Part shown: positions 8,992 through 40,864 of the stretch, piece after piece | How positions within the stretch are numbered: the first letter of the stretch is position 1 | Layout of the letters: each line of letters starts with the position of its first letter | NCBI GenBank assembly: GCA_945869955.1 | Contig: CAMBQP010000024.1 | Coordinates: 1-41,008 of the forward strand | Direction of reading: 5' to 3' | DNA from: Schlesneria paludicola DSM 18645 | GTDB taxonomy: Bacteria; Planctomycetota; Planctomycetia; Planctomycetales; Planctomycetaceae | Length of the DNA: 41,008 nt | Translations under genes and position numbers: made by a program | Notes under the pieces: model-generated | Databases searched by the model: none | What the model saw: the letters and a program-made list of their open reading frames with translations, nothing else | Told to the model about the DNA's origin: nothing

Positions 8992-9555
8992 AACTGCGAT
9001 CTACCGATCAATTCCTTTCCCAAATCAAGCACCGTGGCGGCAAACCGATTTTGGCCAACCCGGCTTTCGATCATCAACCGCTTGCGCGGGACCTTGGGAC
9101 TTCTCCCAACATCAGGGAACCTTCGAAACCGATTTCGGAGTTCATGCTCCCCATGAAAACAAACCTTTACACCACAATAGAGTAGGACGCACCGGGACCG
9201 TGGTCAATCGTTATTTGTCGCAACTCGAATTTCCCCATCGCGGAAGTTGCGGAATTTTGCCACGGGAAGGGTTTGTAACGTCACCGCAGCCCGTAACCGC
9301 TCACAGCGAAGTGAGGGGAACAGGGACCGTTTTTCCGGCAAAACGTTGAGTGAATGGTTTGAGCGATTTGGCGGATCTTCACTTGGTCGCGGGAAACATG
9401 AGCCAGTCCCCGAGCTGTGAACGATTACCCGCAGCCCGTTGTTCACAACACGATTTATTTTCGGCAGCCTGTTGCGATCGGGAAAATTCGTGATGATATC
9501 AAGATGATAAGGGTCCAAAACCGTTCTACGTCCCCTGCAGCGCTATCGGTTCCCC
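8992..9555. other. divergent intergenic region, helicase / hypF
   Basis: About 560 bp between divergently read genes, so promoters for both should lie here. I see no convincing -35/-10 pair. A short inverted pair ctcacagcgaagtgag occurs at 9300-9315. A 104-residue minus-strand frame (9204-9518) has no recognisable features and I leave it out. Confidence 0.45.
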
Positions 9556-11898
9556 ATGAACGACGCACACCCTGCTCATGAACTCGTCGCTCGCCGGATT
9601 TCGATCCAGGGGGTTGTTCAAGGGGTCGGATTTCGCCCGTTTGTCTACCAATTGGCGGCCCAGCATCACGTCCGGGGCTGGGTGCTCAATGGCGAAGCGG
9701 GGGTCGAAATCCATGCGGAAGGGTCTGCGGCAGCACTCGCATCGTTTCTGACTCAGTTGCAGGCGACTCCCCCCGCAGCGGCTTGCATTCGTCAAACCAA
9801 CATCCGCACCGTCGCCCCGGAAGGGTTTGCCGATTTTCAAATTCGTCCAAGCCATCGTCATCAGGCCCCAACGACGGGAATCGCTCCTGACTTATCGATC
9901 TGTGCCGAGTGTACGCGGGAACTGAGCGACCCCACAGACCGCCGCTATCACTATCCGTATCTGAATTGTGCCCACTGTGGACCACGTTATTCCTTGATCG
10001 AAGGGCTTCCCTACGACCGCGCACGGACCACCATGCAGGCCTGGCCATTGTGTCAAAAATGTCAGCAAGATTACGACAATCCCGGCGATCGTCGGCATCA
10101 TGCCCAACCCGTGGCCTGTGCCGATTGCGGACCTGGCTATTCGTTGATCGAGGAAGATCGTTGCCTCGATCAGAGCGACCGCGCCATTCATCGGGCCGCA
10201 GAATTATTGCGACAAGGGAAAATTGTCGCCTTGAAAGGGCTGGGGGGTTATCATCTGGCCTGCGATGCCTGTAACTCGGCGGCGGTGACGGAACTGCGGA
10301 AACGGAAATTCCGCAAAGCGCGTCCTTTTGCTTTATTAGCCTGCGATCTGACCGAGGTTCGTCGTTACGTGATGCTGACGGGCCTGCACGAGTATTGGCT
10401 GCAGCACGTGGCGCGACCGATTGTGATCGCTCCCGCCCGGATCGAACTGACAGCAGTCTCACCAGCAGTCTCACCAGCAATCTCACCAGCAATCTCACCA
10501 GCAATCTCACCAGCAATCTCACCAGGAAACGGGTCGCTCGGGGTGATGCTCCCCTCCTCACCGCTGCACCTCTTGCTATTCGCGGCAGGAGCACCCAGTC
10601 CTTTGGTGCTGACGAGTGGTAATCGTGCGAGCGAACCGATCCCGTTTCGCGACGATGACGCCATTGACCAATTGGAAGGACTGGCTGATGCGCTGCTGAT
10701 TGGTCAGCGTCCGATTGCCCGGCGTGTGGATGATTCGGTGATCACCGTGCGGGGAAACCGTCCGCTGATGATTCGCCGTGGTCGTGGTTTTGCACCGGCT
10801 GCCGTTTGCCAGTTGCCTGCAACGCAACCAATCCTCGCCTTGGGGAGTGACCTGAAGAATGCGATTGCCCTGGTGGTTGATGGTCAGGTCCTGGTCAGTC
10901 AGCATCTGGGCGACCTTGATGACCTCGAGACCGAACGATCGTTTGTCGAGACCGTTCATGACCTGCTCGACATGTATCAGGTCCCGCAGGAGGACCTCAT
11001 TGTCGTGCATGATTTGCACCCACAATTTCGCTCGACCCACTTTGCGGGCCGATTTCCGCTGGCACAGCGGAGGGGCATCCAGCACCACCACGCGCATCTG
11101 GCCAGCGTGCTGGCGGAACACCAGTTGTTGGACGAACGAGTGGTTGGGGTCGCTTTTGATGGAATGGGGTATGGGACGGATGGCACGATCTGGGGTGGTG
11201 AATTTTTTGTGGGGAGCGTTCGCCAGGGGTTTACTCGGTGTGGCTCGTTGCGGCCCGTTCGCATTCCCGGTGGCGACGCCGCAGCGAAATTTCCGGCTCA
11301 GGCCGCTGCGGGCTTTCTGGCCGAACTCGACAATCTTCCAGAGATGCAGGCCGCTCCCTTTTTTTTCCCGCAGCGCTACACCGACGCCGTTCAGTTGGTG
11401 AAGAAAAACGTGCGTTGTTACACGTCAACCTCGGTGGGGCGGCTATTCGATGCGGTCGCAGCGCTGGTCGGTTTTGTGGGTGAAATGAGCTTTGAAGGTC
11501 AGGCAGCGATCTGGCTGGAAAATCTGGCTCGCCCTGCGACGCCGCAGTGTCCCTATCCTTTCCCCCATCTGGATCCTCGACCGCTGCTACAGGCTTTGAT
11601 TTCCGATCGCATCGCTGGCCGACCGATTGCGGAAATGGCCGCTGCATTCCACGCAGCGCTGGCGCTTGCGACGGTGGATCAAGTCCGCAAATTCTGCGTA
11701 GAGAACAAAACAAAAACCGTCGTCTTCTCAGGGGGTGTCTTTCAGAACGAACTGTTACTCGAAGCCATCACCGAAGGCTTGGGACTGGTGCCTGGCATCC
11801 GCCTGCTGATGAATCAACTCGTCCCAGCCAACGACGGCGGAATCTGCGTGGGTCAAGCGGCCCTGGTCGCCGCATCACTCCCCGGATCGCAACACTGA
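9556..11898 (+). CDS. hypF: carbamoyltransferase HypF, [NiFe]-hydrogenase maturation
   Basis: 780 residues, near full family length, with the complete HypF domain order. An acylphosphatase domain covers residues 13-100 (VQGVGFRPFVY at 21-31). Paired zinc fingers cover about 115-195 (CAEC ... CAHCG, CQKC ... CADCG). A YrdC-like domain covers about 205-400 and a Kae1-like domain about 415-775 (HHHAH metal site, FSGGVFQNELL, NDGGICVGQ). HypF makes carbamoyl-AMP from carbamoyl phosphate and ATP and passes the carbamoyl group to HypE, giving the cyanide ligands of the nickel-iron site. No hydrogenase or other hyp gene is in this window, so partners must lie elsewhere. Oddity: an in-frame 72-bp tandem repeat lies inside the YrdC domain (10453-10524). 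The ribosome-binding site is weak. Confidence 0.95.
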   Translation: MNDAHPAHELVARRISIQGVVQGVGFRPFVYQLAAQHHVRGWVLNGEAGVEIHAEGSAAALASFLTQLQATPPAAACIRQTNIRTVAPEGFADFQIRPSHRHQAPTTGIAPDLSICAECTRELSDPTDRRYHYPYLNCAHCGPRYSLIEGLPYDRARTTMQAWPLCQKCQQDYDNPGDRRHHAQPVACADCGPGYSLIEEDRCLDQSDRAIHRAAELLRQGKIVALKGLGGYHLACDACNSAAVTELRKRKFRKARPFALLACDLTEVRRYVMLTGLHEYWLQHVARPIVIAPARIELTAVSPAVSPAISPAISPAISPAISPGNGSLGVMLPSSPLHLLLFAAGAPSPLVLTSGNRASEPIPFRDDDAIDQLEGLADALLIGQRPIARRVDDSVITVRGNRPLMIRRGRGFAPAAVCQLPATQPILALGSDLKNAIALVVDGQVLVSQHLGDLDDLETERSFVETVHDLLDMYQVPQEDLIVVHDLHPQFRSTHFAGRFPLAQRRGIQHHHAHLASVLAEHQLLDERVVGVAFDGMGYGTDGTIWGGEFFVGSVRQGFTRCGSLRPVRIPGGDAAAKFPAQAAAGFLAELDNLPEMQAAPFFFPQRYTDAVQLVKKNVRCYTSTSVGRLFDAVAALVGFVGEMSFEGQAAIWLENLARPATPQCPYPFPHLDPRPLLQALISDRIAGRPIAEMAAAFHAALALATVDQVRKFCVENKTKTVVFSGGVFQNELLLEAITEGLGLVPGIRLLMNQLVPANDGGICVGQAALVAASLPGSQH
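10453..10524 (+). repeat. six 12-bp tandem repeats inside hypF
   Basis: Six perfect-length units (two of gcagtctcacca, four of gcaatctcacca) encode AVSPAVSP and then four AISP repeats, around residues 300-323. The unit is a multiple of three, so the frame is kept. The repeat sits just before the conserved G-x-LGVMLP-x-SPLH motif of the YrdC domain, where the family normally has a short loop. Confidence 0.9.
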
Positions 11899-19115: not shown

Positions 19116-20192
19116 CTAATCCAGCTGGGATGTTTCGCCCTTGGCTGCAGTCAGTGCCCCACCAAAGTTGACAGGAGAAACGTTCTCACTGACAAACTTG
19201 ACCGAGCCATCGCACATCAGGAATGAAGCCCCACCGACGTGAAACGAGTGGAAGTTACCACGAGCATTCGAGCAATTGATCGCACAGGGGCCGCCACCGC
19301 CGCTCGTATTTCCGTTGACCGTTTGAGCCGACTGGGTTCCGTCCTGATTCGCACCATTGATCCAGTTTTCACCGATCAAAACATCTCCCCAGCCAATCCC
19401 GTTGGTGACAGCACCGTAGCCGGCCCCCAGGTACATTTCGCTGGCAATCACCGAGGCGGCGGTCATCGGCTTGGTTTTGTTGTACAGATTGGTGCTACCG
19501 GTTCGTTCACCGAAGATAATTGTATTCGAGGACCCATCGGTGATGTCGGCTAATCCCATGCACCCACCACCGTACGAGGCAACGGTGGTCGGTCCATTTC
19601 GCTGGCCACCCACGTTGCCGCTGAAGGTGTACATTGCGTAGCCGTCACGCACACCCGAATTGATCGAGTAGTCACCACGGGCCATGGGAACACTCCATGT
19701 TGCCGGTGGAAAGGCCCCAAAAACGCCTTGAAGATAGATCGCGGTGCTGATCGCCGGTGCAGGAACCGAAGGGCACTTCCACATCGTAAGTTGTGTCGCG
19801 AGGACAGACATGTTTGCCGCACAGGCAGCTGCATTGTAGTTCCCAGGAACATTGGTGGCAGGTACCGAGCTGTTCCATTGATTGTACAGATTGGCCTGAT
19901 CGAGGTACGGCAACAACTTGGTGCCGATCCCGGAAACGTTGTTGTCGACCGGAGTGCCGTTGATGACAGCGATGTAGGAATTGGGAAACTTATTATACAG
20001 GTCGTGGTAGTTATGCAGTGCCAACCCAAGTTGTTTCAGGTTGTTTTTGCACTGTGTTCGCCGGGCTGCTTCGCGGGCTTGCTGCACGGCGGGAAGCAGC
20101 AATGCAATCAGAACAGCGATGATGGCAATTACCACCAGCAGTTCAATCAACGTGAATCCTCTTTGCCGAATCCGACTTCGCTCGTTAACCAT
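19116..20192 (-). CDS. DUF1559 protein with pseudopilin-type N-terminus
   Basis: 358 residues. The N-terminus [20 protein letters not shown] is a type IV pilin-like signal: prepilin peptidase would cut after Gly12 and methylate Phe13, with Glu17 as the conserved acid. The [20 protein letters not shown] helix and NYHD follow, then the large DUF1559 domain (SBP_bac_10). The C-terminal H-x9-DG motif is present in [18 protein letters not shown]. This family is strongly expanded in Planctomycetota and is the clearest lineage marker in the window. It is presumably an envelope or pseudopilus component, but its role is unproven. A terminator follows the gene. Confidence 0.95.
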
Positions 20193-20502
20193 CTGAAATC
20201 TCCAAAAAACTACAACATTAAAACCGAAAATCCAACCGCGCCCCGTTGTGGCGACCGAAGCAGGCCTTCATGAAAATCTGATTTACAATCGATGAGAAAT
20301 TCGAGATGGGGATTGCCTTGGGACGAAGCTCGCGAATTATCCAATCGACCGAATCGTCTCGCAAGTCTCTTTGATCAAAAATTCTCGCCGTCACGGCAAT
20401 TTTCCCCTGAGCCAATTCGCGGAACACGCCGTGAGGCCCTCGACCAACTTCGTGCAAAACCATTATCCCCCTCCCTTTCCCGCCCAACACAGGATCACTA
20501 CC
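20193..20502. other. gap upstream of the DUF1559 gene
   Basis: About 310 bp between the zinc-ribbon gene end and the DUF1559 start (both minus), where the DUF1559 promoter must lie. A 90-residue minus frame (20218-20490) has no recognisable features and I do not call it. Confidence 0.4.
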
Positions 20503-34768: not shown

Positions 34769-36385
34769 TCATGATCGATCACGTCCCCGCTCTTTTTCCC
34801 GATGTTGCTTTTTCAGTTCCCGCCGCTGCTTTTTACTCAACCCTTTCATCTCATCCGCAGTCATCCCCGAATCTCGCTCAAACTGCTGATCCTCATCCAA
34901 TTCATGCGAAGATTCAGTAGCCGACTCGCCGTACTCTGCTGCAACTGCCGCGTCCCGCTCTGCTTCCCATGAGGGCTCTTCCTCTTCTTCCGCTGCTGCT
35001 GCGGCAAGGAAATGGGGTGCTGCTGGGCGTGGCGTATGAGCCTGATGAGTTTGAGTCGTTCGCCCATCCCCTTTCGACGGGGATTTCTGCCGGGAATCTC
35101 GTGGAGATTCCACGGGTTCTTCATGCCACTCGTCCTGCTCGGCTTCCGCCCCGCTTTCGTCCGATTCCTCCGGATTTTCCCATTCCGAGGCCTCATCAAC
35201 AGCCTCGTTTACCCGTTCGGAATTATCGTAGCCACTCTCGACTTCGTGCGAGGAAGACTCGTCAACAGTTTCTTCGTACCCCGATTCGGCGGACTCGTCC
35301 TCTTCGACAGGGGCCGGTTTCGGTCGAGTTCGCGTTCGCGTCGGCGTTGATGTCCGTCTGGTGGCTGGCTTTCGTTTTGGTTTGGCTGCGACTTCCTCGA
35401 CTTCCGCCTCCACCTTTTTTCGCCGTCGCTTCGGTTTGGCGGCCAACTCTGCTTCAGCATCCAGCAATGACTGCGTCTCTTTCGAAGTTTTCCATGTCCA
35501 ATTCCAATTCCGGACTCGGTAAACCAGCCACAAAAGAGCCGCCAGCGCCAGCGATGCCGCACTGCGCTGTTCGAGTTTGGGGGGATCAGGACAGACATAA
35601 GCGACGACTCTCGCGTGCAGCCACAAACCCAGAAATAACGCAAAGCTGGCGTAGAGCGGCAGAAGTTGCCGGACCGCCGCGTACCAGGCGTATGATTGCA
35701 ACTCGACCTGGTATAGCTGAACCAAGGCACAAGCCAACCAAAGTCCCCCGGCACACCGCAGCACGATCAAGCTGGATCGACCATTGCGGACATCTCGATC
35801 CAGCAGCAGCGAAATCGGCAAGCCCGCCAGACACCAAGGCAAGAGCCAGGCAACCGTTTCACCTCGCCAATTAAGCCACGGACCTTGTCCCAGGACCTCA
35901 CCAACAGTCTGCTGAAGCTGGGTGGCCGAGCAAAATGTCGCCACACCAAAGAGCCCAATTGCCCAAGGCCAGACACGATAGCGACCGGCAAAATCGAGCT
36001 TGCAACGAGATCGATACCAGCCGATCAACAGCCCCATCTGAGTCGAAAGGGCCAGCAGCAATGTTTGAATCACATTCAACAGCGGCGGGCGTGAACCCCG
36101 CAGCAAGTGCTCCGTAAAACGGTTGAGGCAAGGCAGAGAAACCAACGGAGAGACCATCGCGATGGTCAACGCAACCAGCAGTGACCCCATCACCGCCGCA
36201 TAGATCCAAATGCGCAATTCGGTTACGGGAACCCAGGGAGCCGCAGCGGCCGAAGCCACCAGCTCGGATTCAATCTCGGCTCCCTTTTCTTCGGGAGTCA
36301 CGCCATCACGACCGGTGTCGTCACCACTCACGGCGAGTCTTCGTCGCCGTCGGTCGCCTGTCGCACTCGCCCCGGCAAATTGCAT
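34769..36385 (-). CDS. membrane protein with long charged C-terminal region, function unknown
   Basis: 538 residues. The first half holds several hydrophobic segments (for example ELRIWIYAAVMGSLLVALTI near 57-76, and others to about residue 295), with Trp- and Leu-rich loops. The second half is disordered in character: basic (KPKRRRKK, TRTRTRPKPAP), then strongly acidic and Ser-rich, then Ala/Glu repeats (AAAAAEEEEE), ending with a basic tail (SKKQRRELKKQHREKERGRD). I recognise no family. The layout suggests an integral membrane protein with a cytoplasmic or periplasmic charged tail. A weak aagag precedes the ATG at 36385. Confidence 0.7.
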   Translation of the reverse strand: MQFAGASATGDRRRRRLAVSGDDTGRDGVTPEEKGAEIESELVASAAAAPWVPVTELRIWIYAAVMGSLLVALTIAMVSPLVSLPCLNRFTEHLLRGSRPPLLNVIQTLLLALSTQMGLLIGWYRSRCKLDFAGRYRVWPWAIGLFGVATFCSATQLQQTVGEVLGQGPWLNWRGETVAWLLPWCLAGLPISLLLDRDVRNGRSSLIVLRCAGGLWLACALVQLYQVELQSYAWYAAVRQLLPLYASFALFLGLWLHARVVAYVCPDPPKLEQRSAASLALAALLWLVYRVRNWNWTWKTSKETQSLLDAEAELAAKPKRRRKKVEAEVEEVAAKPKRKPATRRTSTPTRTRTRPKPAPVEEDESAESGYEETVDESSSHEVESGYDNSERVNEAVDEASEWENPEESDESGAEAEQDEWHEEPVESPRDSRQKSPSKGDGRTTQTHQAHTPRPAAPHFLAAAAAEEEEEPSWEAERDAAVAAEYGESATESSHELDEDQQFERDSGMTADEMKGLSKKQRRELKKQHREKERGRDRS

Positions 36386-36746: not shown

Positions 36747-37880
36747 TCACTCGGCAACCGACATCGGTTCTCCGAGGCGTTCGAGCGGCTTCAGCAAAAA
36801 GCTGAGTAGATCCCGTTCTTCGACGACAATTTGTGCCTGTAATTGCAACCCCGACTTCACCTGAACGGCGACATGGGATTTCGTAAACTCGTCCGCATCA
36901 ATTGATAACCAAGCCCGGAAGAGCCCCTCAGTGGTTGCATCGGGATCGATTTCCAAAATCGTCCCTCTCAAATAACCGAAGTCCGCGTGAGGGAATGCGT
37001 CCAGCTCAAGCCGTGCCGTGAGTTGAGGTCGAAGTCGCCGCATCGAGGCATTCGGAATCTCGATACAAGCTCGAAGCGGCTGCCCATCGGGTTGTACGGT
37101 GACTGCGGGAGTTTCGGGGCTCAGAATATTGCCGGGATGGAGCACCGCCAGTTGGATCACGGTTCCCGATACAGGAGATCGCAACGAGGCTCGTCGGATC
37201 AGTTCATTCAGTTGTGCAATTCGAACTTCGTGGATCCTGAGACGTTCGTCCGCATCGGTCGCCTGCCGATCCCGCTCTGCTGCATCATGACGGGAACGAT
37301 TCAACTCGCCTGTCATCCGGGCCAGTCGCCCCAACAGTTCCAGATGCTGCTGCTCATGCTGCTCGACTTGCCCTTGAGTCACCACCCCCTTTTCCAACAG
37401 CTTCCGAGTCCGCTCACGCTGAACCGCCGACAGTTCAATCACCTTCTTCATCGCGTCGATCTCGTCCATGAGTGCCTGTTGCAGACGGGTGATCTCGAGA
37501 GCGCTTTCTCGACTTCGTTGCGCCTGCGCTTTCAGAATCTCCATTTCCGCAACGATTTTTTCCGCCTCATTACGATGTCCGAACGAATCGAGTTCGAGCA
37601 ACAGATCCCCCGCTGCAACGTGCTGACCAACCTCGACCGCCACCTGAACCACCAGTGCCGCTTCGGAAGCGGTGATCGGGACAGGTTCATCCTGCACGAT
37701 AATCCGGCCCCGCGCCTCGACAACGACATCGACTCGTGTCCACGCTCCCCAGACAACGCTGGAAGCGAGTAACCCCAGAACCAGATAGATTAATCCTCGC
37801 GATAATAAGATTCCTGGGCCTGGCAGCAATTTATCGAGAGGCCGAGATGAAAATGAGGATGCGAGTTGTGGAAGTGGCAT
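36747..37880 (-). CDS. HlyD-like periplasmic adaptor of the peptide exporter
   Basis: 377 residues with one N-terminal membrane segment (27-47, LSRGLIYLVLGLLASSVVWG). A biotinyl/lipoyl-like half (VEVGQHVAAGDLLLELDSFG near 80-99), a coiled-coil hairpin (about 105-235, many Glu, Gln and Arg), the second lipoyl half (IRRASLRSPVSGTVIQLAVL) and a beta-barrel region follow. In type I secretion such adaptors link an inner-membrane ABC exporter to an outer-membrane channel. The exporter gene lies 149 bp upstream on the same strand, and the GG-leader peptide gene before that. The ATG at 37880 has aggga nine bases upstream. No outer-membrane TolC-type gene is in the window. Confidence 0.88.
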   Translation of the reverse strand: MPLPQLASSFSSRPLDKLLPGPGILLSRGLIYLVLGLLASSVVWGAWTRVDVVVEARGRIIVQDEPVPITASEAALVVQVAVEVGQHVAAGDLLLELDSFGHRNEAEKIVAEMEILKAQAQRSRESALEITRLQQALMDEIDAMKKVIELSAVQRERTRKLLEKGVVTQGQVEQHEQQHLELLGRLARMTGELNRSRHDAAERDRQATDADERLRIHEVRIAQLNELIRRASLRSPVSGTVIQLAVLHPGNILSPETPAVTVQPDGQPLRACIEIPNASMRRLRPQLTARLELDAFPHADFGYLRGTILEIDPDATTEGLFRAWLSIDADEFTKSHVAVQVKSGLQLQAQIVVEERDLLSFLLKPLERLGEPMSVAE

Positions 37881-38029
37881 CGTAAAATTCCCTAATTTCC
37901 TGAGGTTATTGTGGCGTAAGGACAGAGTGCGTAGCAAATTCACGGATTCGGCGTTGCGGGCTCGATGCGCTGCGCCACGGCACAGGACCATTCATTCTTA
38001 TCATTCCGATGTTTTTTGCTTTTCGATCG

Positions 38030-40297
38030 TTATTCGCTCAGTTGCTGCCCGACGAGTTCGGTGTACAGCCCCCCCCGCAGCAACAGTTCTTCGTGTGTCC
38101 CCTGGTCGACGATTCGACCTTTATCCATCACGATGATGCGGTCAGCATCACGAACCGTCGACAAGCGATGGGCGATGATCACCACGGTTTTACTGCGACA
38201 GAACCGGGACAAATTACGCTGAATTGTCCGTTCGGCGGCACCATCGAGTGCCGAGGTTGGCTCGTCCAATAGCAGCACATCGGGATCGTGCAGTAAAGCA
38301 CGGGCCAGCGCGATTCGCTGTCGTTGTCCTCCCGAAAGCGATTGGCCACGTTCCCCGACTTTGGTTTCGTATCCCAGGCCAGTTTCGCAGATGAAATCAT
38401 GGGCACCGGCGAGCTTCGCCACTTCGATCACGCGAGACATCGGAAAATCGGGATCGGACATCGCAATGTTATCACGAATTGTACCCGAGAATAAAAAGAC
38501 ATCTTGCGGCAAGGCTCCCATGCGTCGGCGGAGTGACGCGTGCTGAATCGTACGCAGATCATGTCCATCGACAGTAATTCGCCCCCGATCGGGCAGGTAG
38601 AGTCCTTGAATCAATTTCATCAACGTCGACTTGCCCGAACCCGACGGCCCGACAACGGCAACGGTTTCGCCAGGCTGAATTTCGAGTGACACATTTTCCA
38701 GCGCGAGCTGATCGTCGTCGGCAAGATAGCTGTAACTTACGTCATCCAGGCAAATCTGCCCCGACAGTTGCCGCAAGGACAACAGCTGGTGGTCCGCCGA
38801 CTGTTCCGATTCGGCCTCAAACACATCATTCAGTCGGTCAATCGCATTACGGACTTCCTGCAGGCTTTGCCAGGCACCGACCAGTCCTAAAATCGGCCCA
38901 ATCACATTCCCTGCAATGGTAAAGAACCCCAGCAACTGCCCGGTGGTCATGGCGTTGGCCAGCACTTGTTGCGATCCAAACCACAGCAGAAAAACCGTAC
39001 TCCCCGTATGAAGCACCGTCGCCAGACCCGAGTGAATCATCGCCAGATGAGCACCGCGGCGACCGACGAGCATCGTATCGACAAACAGGGATTCGAGCTT
39101 CCAACGAACTTGCGTTTCTGCCGCCAGCGATTTGACCGTGCTCATCCCAGTGATACTTTCGATGACGAACGTCGAGGCTTCGCATTGCTTCTGGAAATAT
39201 TCTTTTTGATTGCGTCGGTAAAGCGGGGAAAACACCAGCATCATCACGATAAAGGCCGGTAACACCGCTAATACGGCCAGTGTGAGTGGAATATTATAGT
39301 AAGCGAGTAGCGCCAGATACGCGGTTGCTAATACCGAATCAAGGATAATCCCTGGGATTGTTCCTGCCATGGCAACACGGATCTTGGCGTTCTCGGCCAC
39401 GCGTGAGGTAATATCACCGACCCGCCGCAAATCGAAAAACCGCTGCGGCAACTGAAAGACGTGACGAAAAAAGTCACTCATGAGTCGCGCATCACACCGT
39501 GTGGAAAGGTGTACGAGTAATCCTTGCCGAACAGTCTGCATCAGAGCTTGGAAGAGGCTCAGGATCAACATGCCGATCAAGAGCATATTCAGCAATCCCA
39601 GGGATCGATGGACCAAAACTCGGTCCACAATCATCTGCGTGAATAACGGCACACCCAGACCGAGCACGCTGAGAATCAGCGAAGCGATCAGGACCTCAAT
39701 GAGCATCGTCCGATACGGTGTGATGATTGGCAGGAATCTTGCCAAGCTCGACTGGGCTGCTTTTTGCTGCGTCAGTTTTTTTTCCGGAACCAGCTCGAGG
39801 GCCAGTCCTGACCACCCTTTGAGAAATTCGTCCTTGGAGATCTTTCTGAGCCCCAGTCCTGGGTCGGCAACAAGAACGGACCGGCGGTGGACTTCGTACA
39901 ACACGACATAATGCATCCCTTCCCAGTGGATGATCGCGGGTAACTGCAGGTGCTGCAGATCGGCAAATTCGAGCCGCAGTCCGCGCGCATGAAACCCGAG
40001 TGATTCTGCGGCACGAGCCACCGACCAGAGGGTCGCTCCATTGGCATCCACGTTGGCCAGATCGCGTAGCCGAGCGACACTAACGGGCGCTCCATAAAAG
40101 CCTGTGACCATCGACAGACAGGCGGCAGCACAGTCTGACTGGTCGTGCTGTTGCACATGGGGATAACGCTTCAGCCAGCGTTTCAAACGAGAGCCGCGAA
40201 TAGCGGGCTGCAGCACCTCAACGGTCTCGTTGTTGTGCGGCTCAACAGAACCTTCCGTCTTGGAAATCGATTCAGGCAAATCAGCGAGTGCAATCAT
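38030..40297 (-). CDS. peptidase C39-domain ABC transporter (PCAT), bacteriocin-type exporter
   Basis: 755 residues with three parts. The N-terminal C39 peptidase domain (about 45-175) shows HVQQHDQSDCAAACLSMV with Q50 and C56, then GMHYVVLYEV (H129) and VADPG (D145): a complete Cys-His-Asp set. The ABC transmembrane domain (about 205-500) comes next. The nucleotide-binding domain (about 510-745) has Walker A GPSGSGKST, signature LSGGQRQRIALARAL, Walker B VLLLDEP and the H-loop IIAHRLS. PCATs cut double-glycine leaders and export the freed peptide. The start at ATG 40297 leaves about 45 residues before the peptidase. An ATG at 40402 would sit directly after the terminator T tract, which argues against it. 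The GG-leader peptide gene is 208 bp upstream. Confidence 0.93.
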   Translation of the reverse strand: MIALADLPESISKTEGSVEPHNNETVEVLQPAIRGSRLKRWLKRYPHVQQHDQSDCAAACLSMVTGFYGAPVSVARLRDLANVDANGATLWSVARAAESLGFHARGLRLEFADLQHLQLPAIIHWEGMHYVVLYEVHRRSVLVADPGLGLRKISKDEFLKGWSGLALELVPEKKLTQQKAAQSSLARFLPIITPYRTMLIEVLIASLILSVLGLGVPLFTQMIVDRVLVHRSLGLLNMLLIGMLILSLFQALMQTVRQGLLVHLSTRCDARLMSDFFRHVFQLPQRFFDLRRVGDITSRVAENAKIRVAMAGTIPGIILDSVLATAYLALLAYYNIPLTLAVLAVLPAFIVMMLVFSPLYRRNQKEYFQKQCEASTFVIESITGMSTVKSLAAETQVRWKLESLFVDTMLVGRRGAHLAMIHSGLATVLHTGSTVFLLWFGSQQVLANAMTTGQLLGFFTIAGNVIGPILGLVGAWQSLQEVRNAIDRLNDVFEAESEQSADHQLLSLRQLSGQICLDDVSYSYLADDDQLALENVSLEIQPGETVAVVGPSGSGKSTLMKLIQGLYLPDRGRITVDGHDLRTIQHASLRRRMGALPQDVFLFSGTIRDNIAMSDPDFPMSRVIEVAKLAGAHDFICETGLGYETKVGERGQSLSGGQRQRIALARALLHDPDVLLLDEPTSALDGAAERTIQRNLSRFCRSKTVVIIAHRLSTVRDADRIIVMDKGRIVDQGTHEELLLRGGLYTELVGQQLSE

Positions 40298-40406
40298 GGG
40301 AGGCACATCCTCAGAAAACGGAGAGCAGGGAATGCGTGATGAGCAGGGACAATCAGAACGCTCGATCAACGGAGAGCGGATCGTCGCGGGACAATTGTTC
40401 ATCCCG

Positions 40407-40450
40407 AAAAAAAACGAAGCCCGGCCCTCGATAGAGCTCGCCGGGCCTCG
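40407..40450 (-). terminator. hairpin plus T8 between precursor and exporter genes (terminator or attenuator)
   Basis: On the minus strand cgaggcccggc (40450-40440) pairs with gccgggcttcg (40425-40415) with one wobble. The loop includes a small inner palindrome (gagctctatcgag). Eight T follow directly (40414-40407). It lies 56 bp past the precursor stop codon and 110 bp before the exporter start. Confidence 0.85.
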
Positions 40451-40505
40451 TCCTGTTATGACCGTATGATTGATGATTCATACTGATGAATCACATCCGG
40501 TCGAA

Positions 40506-40742
40506 TCAGATACCAAAGGTAGGTCGGTCTGGGAAGCAGTTTTTGGTTGGACATTTGACGACATCGCCCTCTTCATCATACGTATAACCGCGGCCGGCCT
40601 TATTATCGCAAGGAGCTGGCTTGGGAGGTGGCGTTGGGGATGTCGTTGGGGGTGGCGTTTTGGGTGGGGCGGGTTCACCACCACCTTGAATTGCCTGCAT
40701 TTCGCTCTTGGTCAATTTTCGTGCCGTCATCAATTGAGTCAT
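40506..40742 (-). CDS. double-glycine leader peptide, putative secreted bacteriocin-like or RiPP-type precursor
   Basis: 78 residues. The leader (residues 1-21) ends LTKSEMQAIQGG. Relative to the cut after Gly21 it has Leu at -12, Glu at -8, Met at -7, Ile at -4 and Gly at -2/-1, the exact pattern read by C39 peptidases. A third Gly (22) follows. The 57-residue core is proline-rich at first (GEPAPPKTPPPTTSPTPPPK) and then carries three Cys (45, 64, 69), two Tyr and an acidic stretch, ending CFPDRPTFGI. I know no family for the core. The start has a strong ribosome-binding site (aggaga, six to seven bases). It stands first in a probable operon with the C39 exporter and HlyD adaptor. No modification enzyme is in the window. 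It may be an antimicrobial, signal or surface peptide. Confidence 0.8.
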   Translation of the reverse strand: MTQLMTARKLTKSEMQAIQGGGEPAPPKTPPPTTSPTPPPKPAPCDNKAGRGYTYDEEGDVVKCPTKNCFPDRPTFGI

Positions 40743-40761: not shown

Positions 40762-40779
40762 GACTGGTGGTTACCAGTC
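40762..40779 (-). promoter_or_regulatory. hairpin just upstream of the precursor ribosome-binding site
   Basis: gactggt (40762-40768) and accagtc (40773-40779) form a 7-bp stem with a 4-base loop. On the mRNA it ends about eight bases before the aggaga ribosome-binding site. It could influence translation or mRNA stability of the precursor. This role is inference. Confidence 0.4.
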
Positions 40780-40864
40780 TTTTTGGGGTTATTTCATTCA
40801 TCACTTGGCAGAACCGGCTCTGTAAAGATCTACCGCCACAGCCCCACAATCCTTTCAGAGAATT

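Follow-up and report, generated by a model that had tools for sequence, protein, structure and literature searches.

Here, we report a putative peptide secretion system in Schlesneria paludicola DSM 18645, in which the genes for a double-glycine (GG) leader precursor, a C39 peptidase-containing ABC exporter and an HlyD-family adaptor follow one another, in that order, on the minus strand of a 41,008-base stretch of DNA (hereafter the window; the entire contig C24 of genome G000, a 6.25-Mb draft in 394 contigs). Leader and core of the precursor are conserved in a congener (genome G137). A preliminary description of the window had put forward a C39/HlyD system of planctomycetes that serves a GG-leader peptide whose core is undescribed, and this view is well supported. 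Because adjacency, leader conservation, and co-occurrence agree, precursor and exporter appear to belong together. The gene anatomy, the homology of leader and core, the shared promoter-like element, and the sigma factor/kinase neighbours in G137 can be read directly from the DNA. The locus probably forms part of a GG-peptide secretion regulon controlled by an extracytoplasmic function (ECF) sigma factor; by analogy, its best reading is that it works like the streptococcal Blp peptides or the cyanobacterial C39/HlyD bacteriocin clusters.

Precursor, exporter, and adaptor

The precursor gene (40506..40742, minus strand; 78 aa), delimited from its frame, its leader match, and the copies in G137, has an AGGAG ribosome-binding site and an ATG start. 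The contig ends only 266 bp upstream, so the sequence preceding the gene was out of view for the preliminary description, whose coordinates, strand, and frame for the three genes were correct on recheck. The leader spans residues 1 to 21 (40680..40742, minus strand) and carries, as had been noted, Leu at −12, Glu at −8, Met at −7, Ile at −4, and Gly-Gly at −2/−1. Cleavage had been placed after Gly21 or Gly22; since the GG of the relatives' leaders aligns at residues 20-21, it is expected after Gly21 and no longer after Gly22. The residue following the aligned GG varies among copies (G, G, D, V). Over the 21 leader codons, the window differs from the G137 copy on contig C13 by 5 synonymous and 4 non-synonymous changes and from that on C101 by 7 and 5, respectively.

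Curated models that match the precursor in Pfam and NCBIfam do so at the leader, every one below its cut-off (Mersacidin, 19.1 versus 27.6 bits; leader_Chryseo, 15.4 versus 23.5; bacteriocin_sig TIGR01847, 13.2 versus 15.7; lichenicidin A2 family, 14.9), and the gene would therefore be named by neither database. A GG-leader scan of the window that required a ribosome-binding site returned the precursor frame as its sole match. Applied to 20 planctomycete loci, a looser scan found 13 matches in 213 kb (6.1 per 100 kb, a rate biased upward by the choice of these loci for their exporters or leaders); block-shuffled copies yielded 1.5 per 100 kb.

The 57-aa core (40509..40679, minus strand) consists of a Pro/Thr/Lys spacer and a Cys-containing C-terminal part that, on core comparison, is homologous to the core of the G137 copy on C70. 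After its GG, the C70 core begins VDTPPPCDSNPSKGYTTIADGPVEKCPT; the counterpart stretch within the window core reads PAPCDNKAGRGYTYDEEGDVVKCPT, and the two have the motif CDx5GYTx8KCPT in common. Compared as cores alone, they are identical at 13 of 25 residues (E = 3e-8, from one single comparison); at the codon level, 6 are identical, 7 differ synonymously, and 12 differ non-synonymously. Both Cys of C70 are kept in the window (Cys45 and Cys64), and the third Cys of the window (Cys69) is absent from C70. The odd Cys number, in which the preliminary description had seen a possible hint of a free thiol, a dimer, or a thioether, loses weight because this homologue carries two. A three-Cys layout for the whole class was ruled out by the Cys counts of the cores (3, 2, 1, and 3 in the window, C70, C13, and C43), of which C13 and C43 also differ in arrangement; a Pro-rich arm followed by a two-Cys domain is the best-supported predicted layout. 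A YD-repeat-like reading of GYTYDEEGDVVK was also rejected, the stretch not being retained in C70. Net charge is about −0.3 at pH 7 and the isoelectric point is 6.3, which is not the cationic core of class II bacteriocins. The calculated average mass of the core is about 6039 Da if unmodified, and about 2 Da lower with a single disulfide.

The exporter gene (38030..40291, minus strand; 753 aa) matches Peptidase_C39, ABC_membrane, and ABC_tran far over cut-off and NCBIfam TIGR01193 ("peptide cleavage/export ABC transporter") just above it (529.4 versus 523.85 bits). The C39 triad comprises Cys54, His127, and Asp143, with Gln48 six residues ahead of the Cys; a C39 domain with these four residues, joined to ABC membrane and ATPase domains, is the composition of a peptidase-containing ABC transporter (PCAT). 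Domain matches and residues bore out the intact triad and the HlyD partner reported earlier. A 790-aa version starting at 40402 was discarded; the start was set at 40291 because the G137 orthologue begins at the same place. The protein has near full-length sequence matches to PCAT1 and ComA (PDB 4ry2 and 8hf4) and to HlyB (7sgr). The C39 domain is included in the matches to 4ry2 and 8hf4; the best score is that of HlyB, but the alignment with it sets in only at residue 57, past the catalytic Cys54, and the NCBIfam HlyB model stays below cut-off (627.6 versus 725.55 bits). The models of the NHLP/NHLM systems for exporter and HlyD likewise score below cut-off (TIGR03796, 584.3 versus 853.3 bits; TIGR03794, 54.3 versus 156.2). 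No other C39 match was returned from G000 at E ≤ 0.001. The adaptor gene (36747..37880, minus strand; 377 aa, starting at 37880) scores above cut-off with HlyD_3. Identity to the G137 orthologues is 84% for the exporter and 79% for HlyD.

Precursor copies, promoter-like element, and putative regulatory genes in the congener

In G137, precursor copies are dispersed and singly scattered over contigs C13, C101, C43, C70, and C63, with leaders alike and cores different, a conserved GG leader motif before divergent paralogue cores being the pattern of GG-leader precursors. The C13 copy (at 73824) is intact, with MTQIKTVRKLTKNEMQAIQGGG ahead of a core unrelated to that of the window, and its leader passes TIGR01847 (16.3 versus 15.7 bits). 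The C101 copy starts with TTG; its leader ends in LTKNEMQAIQGG and is followed by a run of Pro that the end of the contig truncates. The C43 and C70 leaders are split over two frames, and C43 has CG in place of GG. Leaders that stay constant while their cores change, and often decay, resemble a family of fast-evolving effectors. On C63 (locus L213, from 1498), a degraded leader, LTKNEVPNVQRG, lies in frame with a protein bearing a secretion-signal-like stretch, an arrangement that looks as if another gene had recruited the promoter-leader unit. The system had been called self-contained, which is wrong as far as G137 shows: the family is dispersed and has a shared promoter-like element and probably an ECF factor and a kinase.

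This element, CTGAAAGG(A/T)TT..GCGGTAGAT (40828..40858, minus strand; located by pattern search and alignment), precedes the window precursor, the G137 precursors, the G137 exporter, and one G137 methyltransferase gene. Across 15 congeneric genomes, CTGAAAGGNTTNNGRGRCNGTNGCGGTAGAT with up to 3 mismatches matched one place in G000 and five distinct places in G137 (six rows, two of them a single place on overlapping contig ends), with none in the 13 other congeners and none for the reversed control. The pattern was derived from four sites (window, C13, C101, and the G137 exporter), C43 and C64 being independent finds. Exact matches to a shorter pattern fell on the same places; when up to 2 mismatches were allowed, the real counts (12 and 13) were lower than the controls (18 and 21), so weaker matches are not trusted, with the exception of C70, where a leader follows. 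The four differing sites before unbroken genes (window, C13, exporter, and C64) agree throughout in CTGAAAGG and GCGGTA and vary mostly in the stretch between them; when broken and recruited copies are added, bringing the total to eight sites, many fewer positions remain invariant. This conservation fits a −35/−10 pair, and we infer that the element is an ECF promoter. Whole-unit duplication would explain part of the likeness among precursor units and not the element of the G137 exporter, since the exporter and the window share just that stretch (53 nt at 81%).

Between the element and the ribosome-binding site, folding of the sequence gives a 5′ untranslated region hairpin, GACTGGT-AACC-ACCAGTC (40762..40779, minus strand). 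Hairpins stand in the same position in several precursor units; the CTGG/CCAG stem has an A-T closing pair in the window and a G-C one in C101 and C70, and the hairpin is weaker or different in C43 and C63. The product of the element-bearing gene on C64 (L200, 6018-7607; 529 aa) has a TIGR00027 methyltransferase domain and, towards the N terminus, a weak thioesterase-like match; its N terminus may be a leader remnant. The gene was found in 1 of the 15 congeners and not in G000.

Two genes lie divergent from the exporter on G137 contig C101, one for an ECF-type sigma factor and the other for a membrane Ser/Thr kinase; the C101 precursor gene comes after the latter. C101 adjoins C31, as their ends have 149 identical bases in common. 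The sigma factor scores 64.8 bits with TIGR02937 (cut-off, 42.9), above the Pfam cut-off with Sigma70_r2, and just below it with Sigma70_r4_2. The kinase (953 aa) combines an anti-sigma-like zinc finger (zf-HC2, 26.2 versus 22.2 bits), a Pkinase domain, and, around residue 481, a single hydrophobic stretch; its C-terminal part matches nothing in Pfam. An ECF gene next to a Ser/Thr kinase gene was found in G137 only. In G000, contig C226 ends inside a gene for a homologue of the kinase C-terminal half (51% identical). In both genomes, the kinase has a large C-terminal part after its single hydrophobic stretch, and in G000 that part has no match in Pfam, NCBIfam, or PDB. A natural guess is that the gap between C226 and C24 holds the remaining ECF/kinase sequence.

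According to a review (PMC8103513), some ECF groups are encoded near Ser/Thr kinase genes, and the phospho-activated ones lack DAED, which is replaced by uncharged residues in the ECF43/ECF59 type. The G137 factor reads DAAD (aligned by eye) and departs from that type; because of this motif, the zinc finger may instead act as the brake on the ECF factor. A Hanks-kinase motif was present in 3 of 20 loci fetched (three from G137, including C101, which is one of the matches, and 17 one each from other genomes with C39 matches), in 0 of 80 loci named as exporter relatives, and in 0 of 17 short decoy loci (48 kb), a count that is suggestive only.

Distribution and likeness to known systems

A precursor search of 170 genomes of the family matched 12 at E ≤ 0.01. 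Matches that begin at residue 1 come from G000 and G137 alone; the other 11 places (10 genomes) are weak and were not returned by a leader profile run over 170 genomes of the order. That profile matched 7 of 170 at E ≤ 0.1, and a profile of all copies, which contains those of G000 and G137 by construction, matched 5 of 397 class genomes at E ≤ 0.05; in both, only G000 and G137 are strong, and the weak genomes number five in the order and three in the class sample, the latter with E values of about 0.04 to 0.05. A search of plasmids with the precursor gave no match. HlyD matched 11 of 170 genomes at E ≤ 1e-10, the nine besides G000 and G137 at most 35% identical, and its orthologue and the leader are confined to the same 2 of 170 genomes. 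The preliminary description had proposed seeking the leader near C39 exporters of other Planctomycetota and had named missing conservation in relatives as the outcome that would speak against it; leader and core are both conserved in G137, and strong matches are confined to G000 and G137. The contig also encodes, at 19119-20267, a DUF1559/prepilin-type protein (PF07596, 180 bits), of a kind typical of the phylum Planctomycetota.

Among the loci compared, the next exporters are planctomycete (G029, G166, and G070; about 43% identical), followed by mostly proteobacterial ones (about 39%), in a lookup by exact peptide pattern that may omit near records. As at our locus, those of G029 and G070 (loci L061 and L060) have GG-leader small frames beside them, and a Pkinase gene lies near in L061; however, their leaders differ (LTAEEAAAVFGG and alike), the core is Lys/Arg-rich (RLKxGxYxVKY), and HlyD stands ahead of the exporter in L061. 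These peptides, from two other genera of the family, are paired (L061, 3944-4733; L060, 1534-2706). A stricter GG-leader pattern beside named exporter relatives matched 7 of 80 loci, of which L130 and L159 were judged convincing: each has three tandem GG-leader peptides (about 9397-9701), mostly MKELNRDELLKVKGGEDIVEPDET, beside a C39 exporter, in a metagenome-assembled genome of Candidatus Edwardsbacteria and in another bacterial one. Lanthipeptide-type leaders occur in L062 and L066 (L062, the one tested, scores 31.5 versus 22 bits with NF038153), and L070 has a further possible leader frame; the few remaining loose-scan matches look like chance. Predicted GG-peptide export thus recurs among these genomes with unrelated precursors. 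The exporters of L059, L060, and L068 carry about 300 extra N-terminal residues, cyclic-nucleotide-binding-like by eye, as in the cyanobacterial long type described in PMC3140520.

According to the same paper, GG-leader precursors of cyanobacterial C39/HlyD bacteriocin clusters are mostly misannotated and their cores hardly conserved. Group III of these clusters resembles our locus in its short C39-ABC exporter, HlyD, and GG-leader precursors. The cyanobacterial precursors, however, are of the NHLP, N11P, and other types in dense arrays, whereas the copies here are singly scattered with another leader, and an ECF/kinase pair is linked here, in G137. Streptococcal Blp, with BlpAB and BlpRH, likewise combines an exporter, GG-leader peptides, a shared promoter element, and a sensor kinase; its control is two-component, whereas here an ECF factor and a Ser/Thr kinase would act, and an HlyD adaptor is present (for Blp, PMC5295010). 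What was covered of the open-licence literature on planctomycete GG/C39 peptides, on bacteriocin genome mining, and on C39/GG mining in general contains no account of this system; planctomycete bacteriocin clusters are evidently mentioned in the literature.

Proposed mechanism and alternatives

In the proposed regulon, an ECF-type sigma factor, presumably present in G000 as well, would be held by the membrane Ser/Thr kinase that carries the anti-sigma-like zinc finger, and the factor would switch on the shared promoter of the precursor gene or genes and, in G137, of the exporter gene, if sigma factor and promoter pair as supposed. The 21-residue leader would dock to the C39 domain and be cleaved after Gly20-Gly21, and the 57-residue core would exit via the ABC/HlyD channel with a TolC-like outer-membrane partner presumably encoded elsewhere. 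The Pro-rich arm would hold out a small domain, probably closed by a Cys45-Cys64 disulfide. In G137, scattered copies of the unit would have retained promoter and leader while diverging or decaying, a pattern suggestive of secreted peptides that form a regulated family. Its purpose would be, in order of likelihood, antagonism of competitors, signalling, or another. The frame list of the window shows no recognisable immunity gene, although no dedicated search was made for one and the contig ends 266 bp upstream of the precursor; together with the neutral core, this argues for caution over an effector role.

Several observations count against this proposal. The system is found in only two genomes among 170 of the order and 397 of the class sample, and because both carriers are congeners, common descent alone may account for the co-occurrence. 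G000 yielded no ECF orthologue (best match, 28% identity), and TGAAA is absent from the sense strand upstream of the G137 ECF gene, so autoregulation through the element was not seen. C13 and C101 differ at 2 synonymous and 5 non-synonymous of the 21 leader codons, a pair that by itself does not show constraint, and the leader that precedes the homologous C70 core is split over two frames. A strong intrinsic terminator separates precursor and exporter genes in the window (40411..40454, minus strand; sequence analysis); it would yield much precursor and little exporter via read-through, and the G137 exporter has its own element.

The core could instead be a pheromone that, once exported and cleaved, would be sensed by the extracytoplasmic part of the kinase, which would free or activate the ECF factor and raise precursor and exporter expression. 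This is a signalling-purpose version of the proposed regulon, not exclusive of it, and we hold it rather unlikely. It draws on the hydrophobic stretch and large C-terminal part of the kinase in both genomes (51% identical, without a match to Pfam, NCBIfam, or PDB in G000), on the element common to exporter and precursors, and on a core that is not cationic and has no immunity gene recognised in the frame list; pneumococcal BlpC/BlpH/BlpR follows such logic (PMC5295010). G137 paralogues with unrelated cores, however, fit effectors better than one signal. A Blp-type quorum sensing rebuilt from an ECF factor and a Ser/Thr kinase, driving exporter, dispersed precursors, and recruited genes, is an improbable extension.

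That the core is a ribosomally synthesized and post-translationally modified peptide, altered by enzymes encoded elsewhere and secreted by the C39 exporter as the modified product, is equally doubtful. The faint lantibiotic-model scores of the leader (Mersacidin, 19.1 bits; lichenicidin A2 family, 14.9), both below cut-off, and the TIGR00027 methyltransferase-domain gene that carries the same element in G137 point that way, but this gene occurs in 1 of 15 congeners and not in G000, the Cys number varies among cores (3, 2, 1, 3), and no synthetase was found among the neighbours scanned (window 34772-36385, exporter, HlyD, and the G137 ECF factor and kinase), the rest of the genomes not having been searched. 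Least probable is a decaying relic whose peptide is no longer made or exported: 3 of the 5 recognised G137 copies are broken or degraded (C43, C70, and C63), but precursor, exporter, and HlyD of the window are all open and intact, and its leader motif is kept relative to G137 across 5 synonymous and 4 non-synonymous changes.

For the Planctomycetota, the locus specifies a precursor, its leader and expected cut site, an exporter, and a promoter-like element, so maturation and control are directly testable. If the link to the ECF/kinase genes is true, the ECF-kinase pair would gain a target regulon and a biological output.

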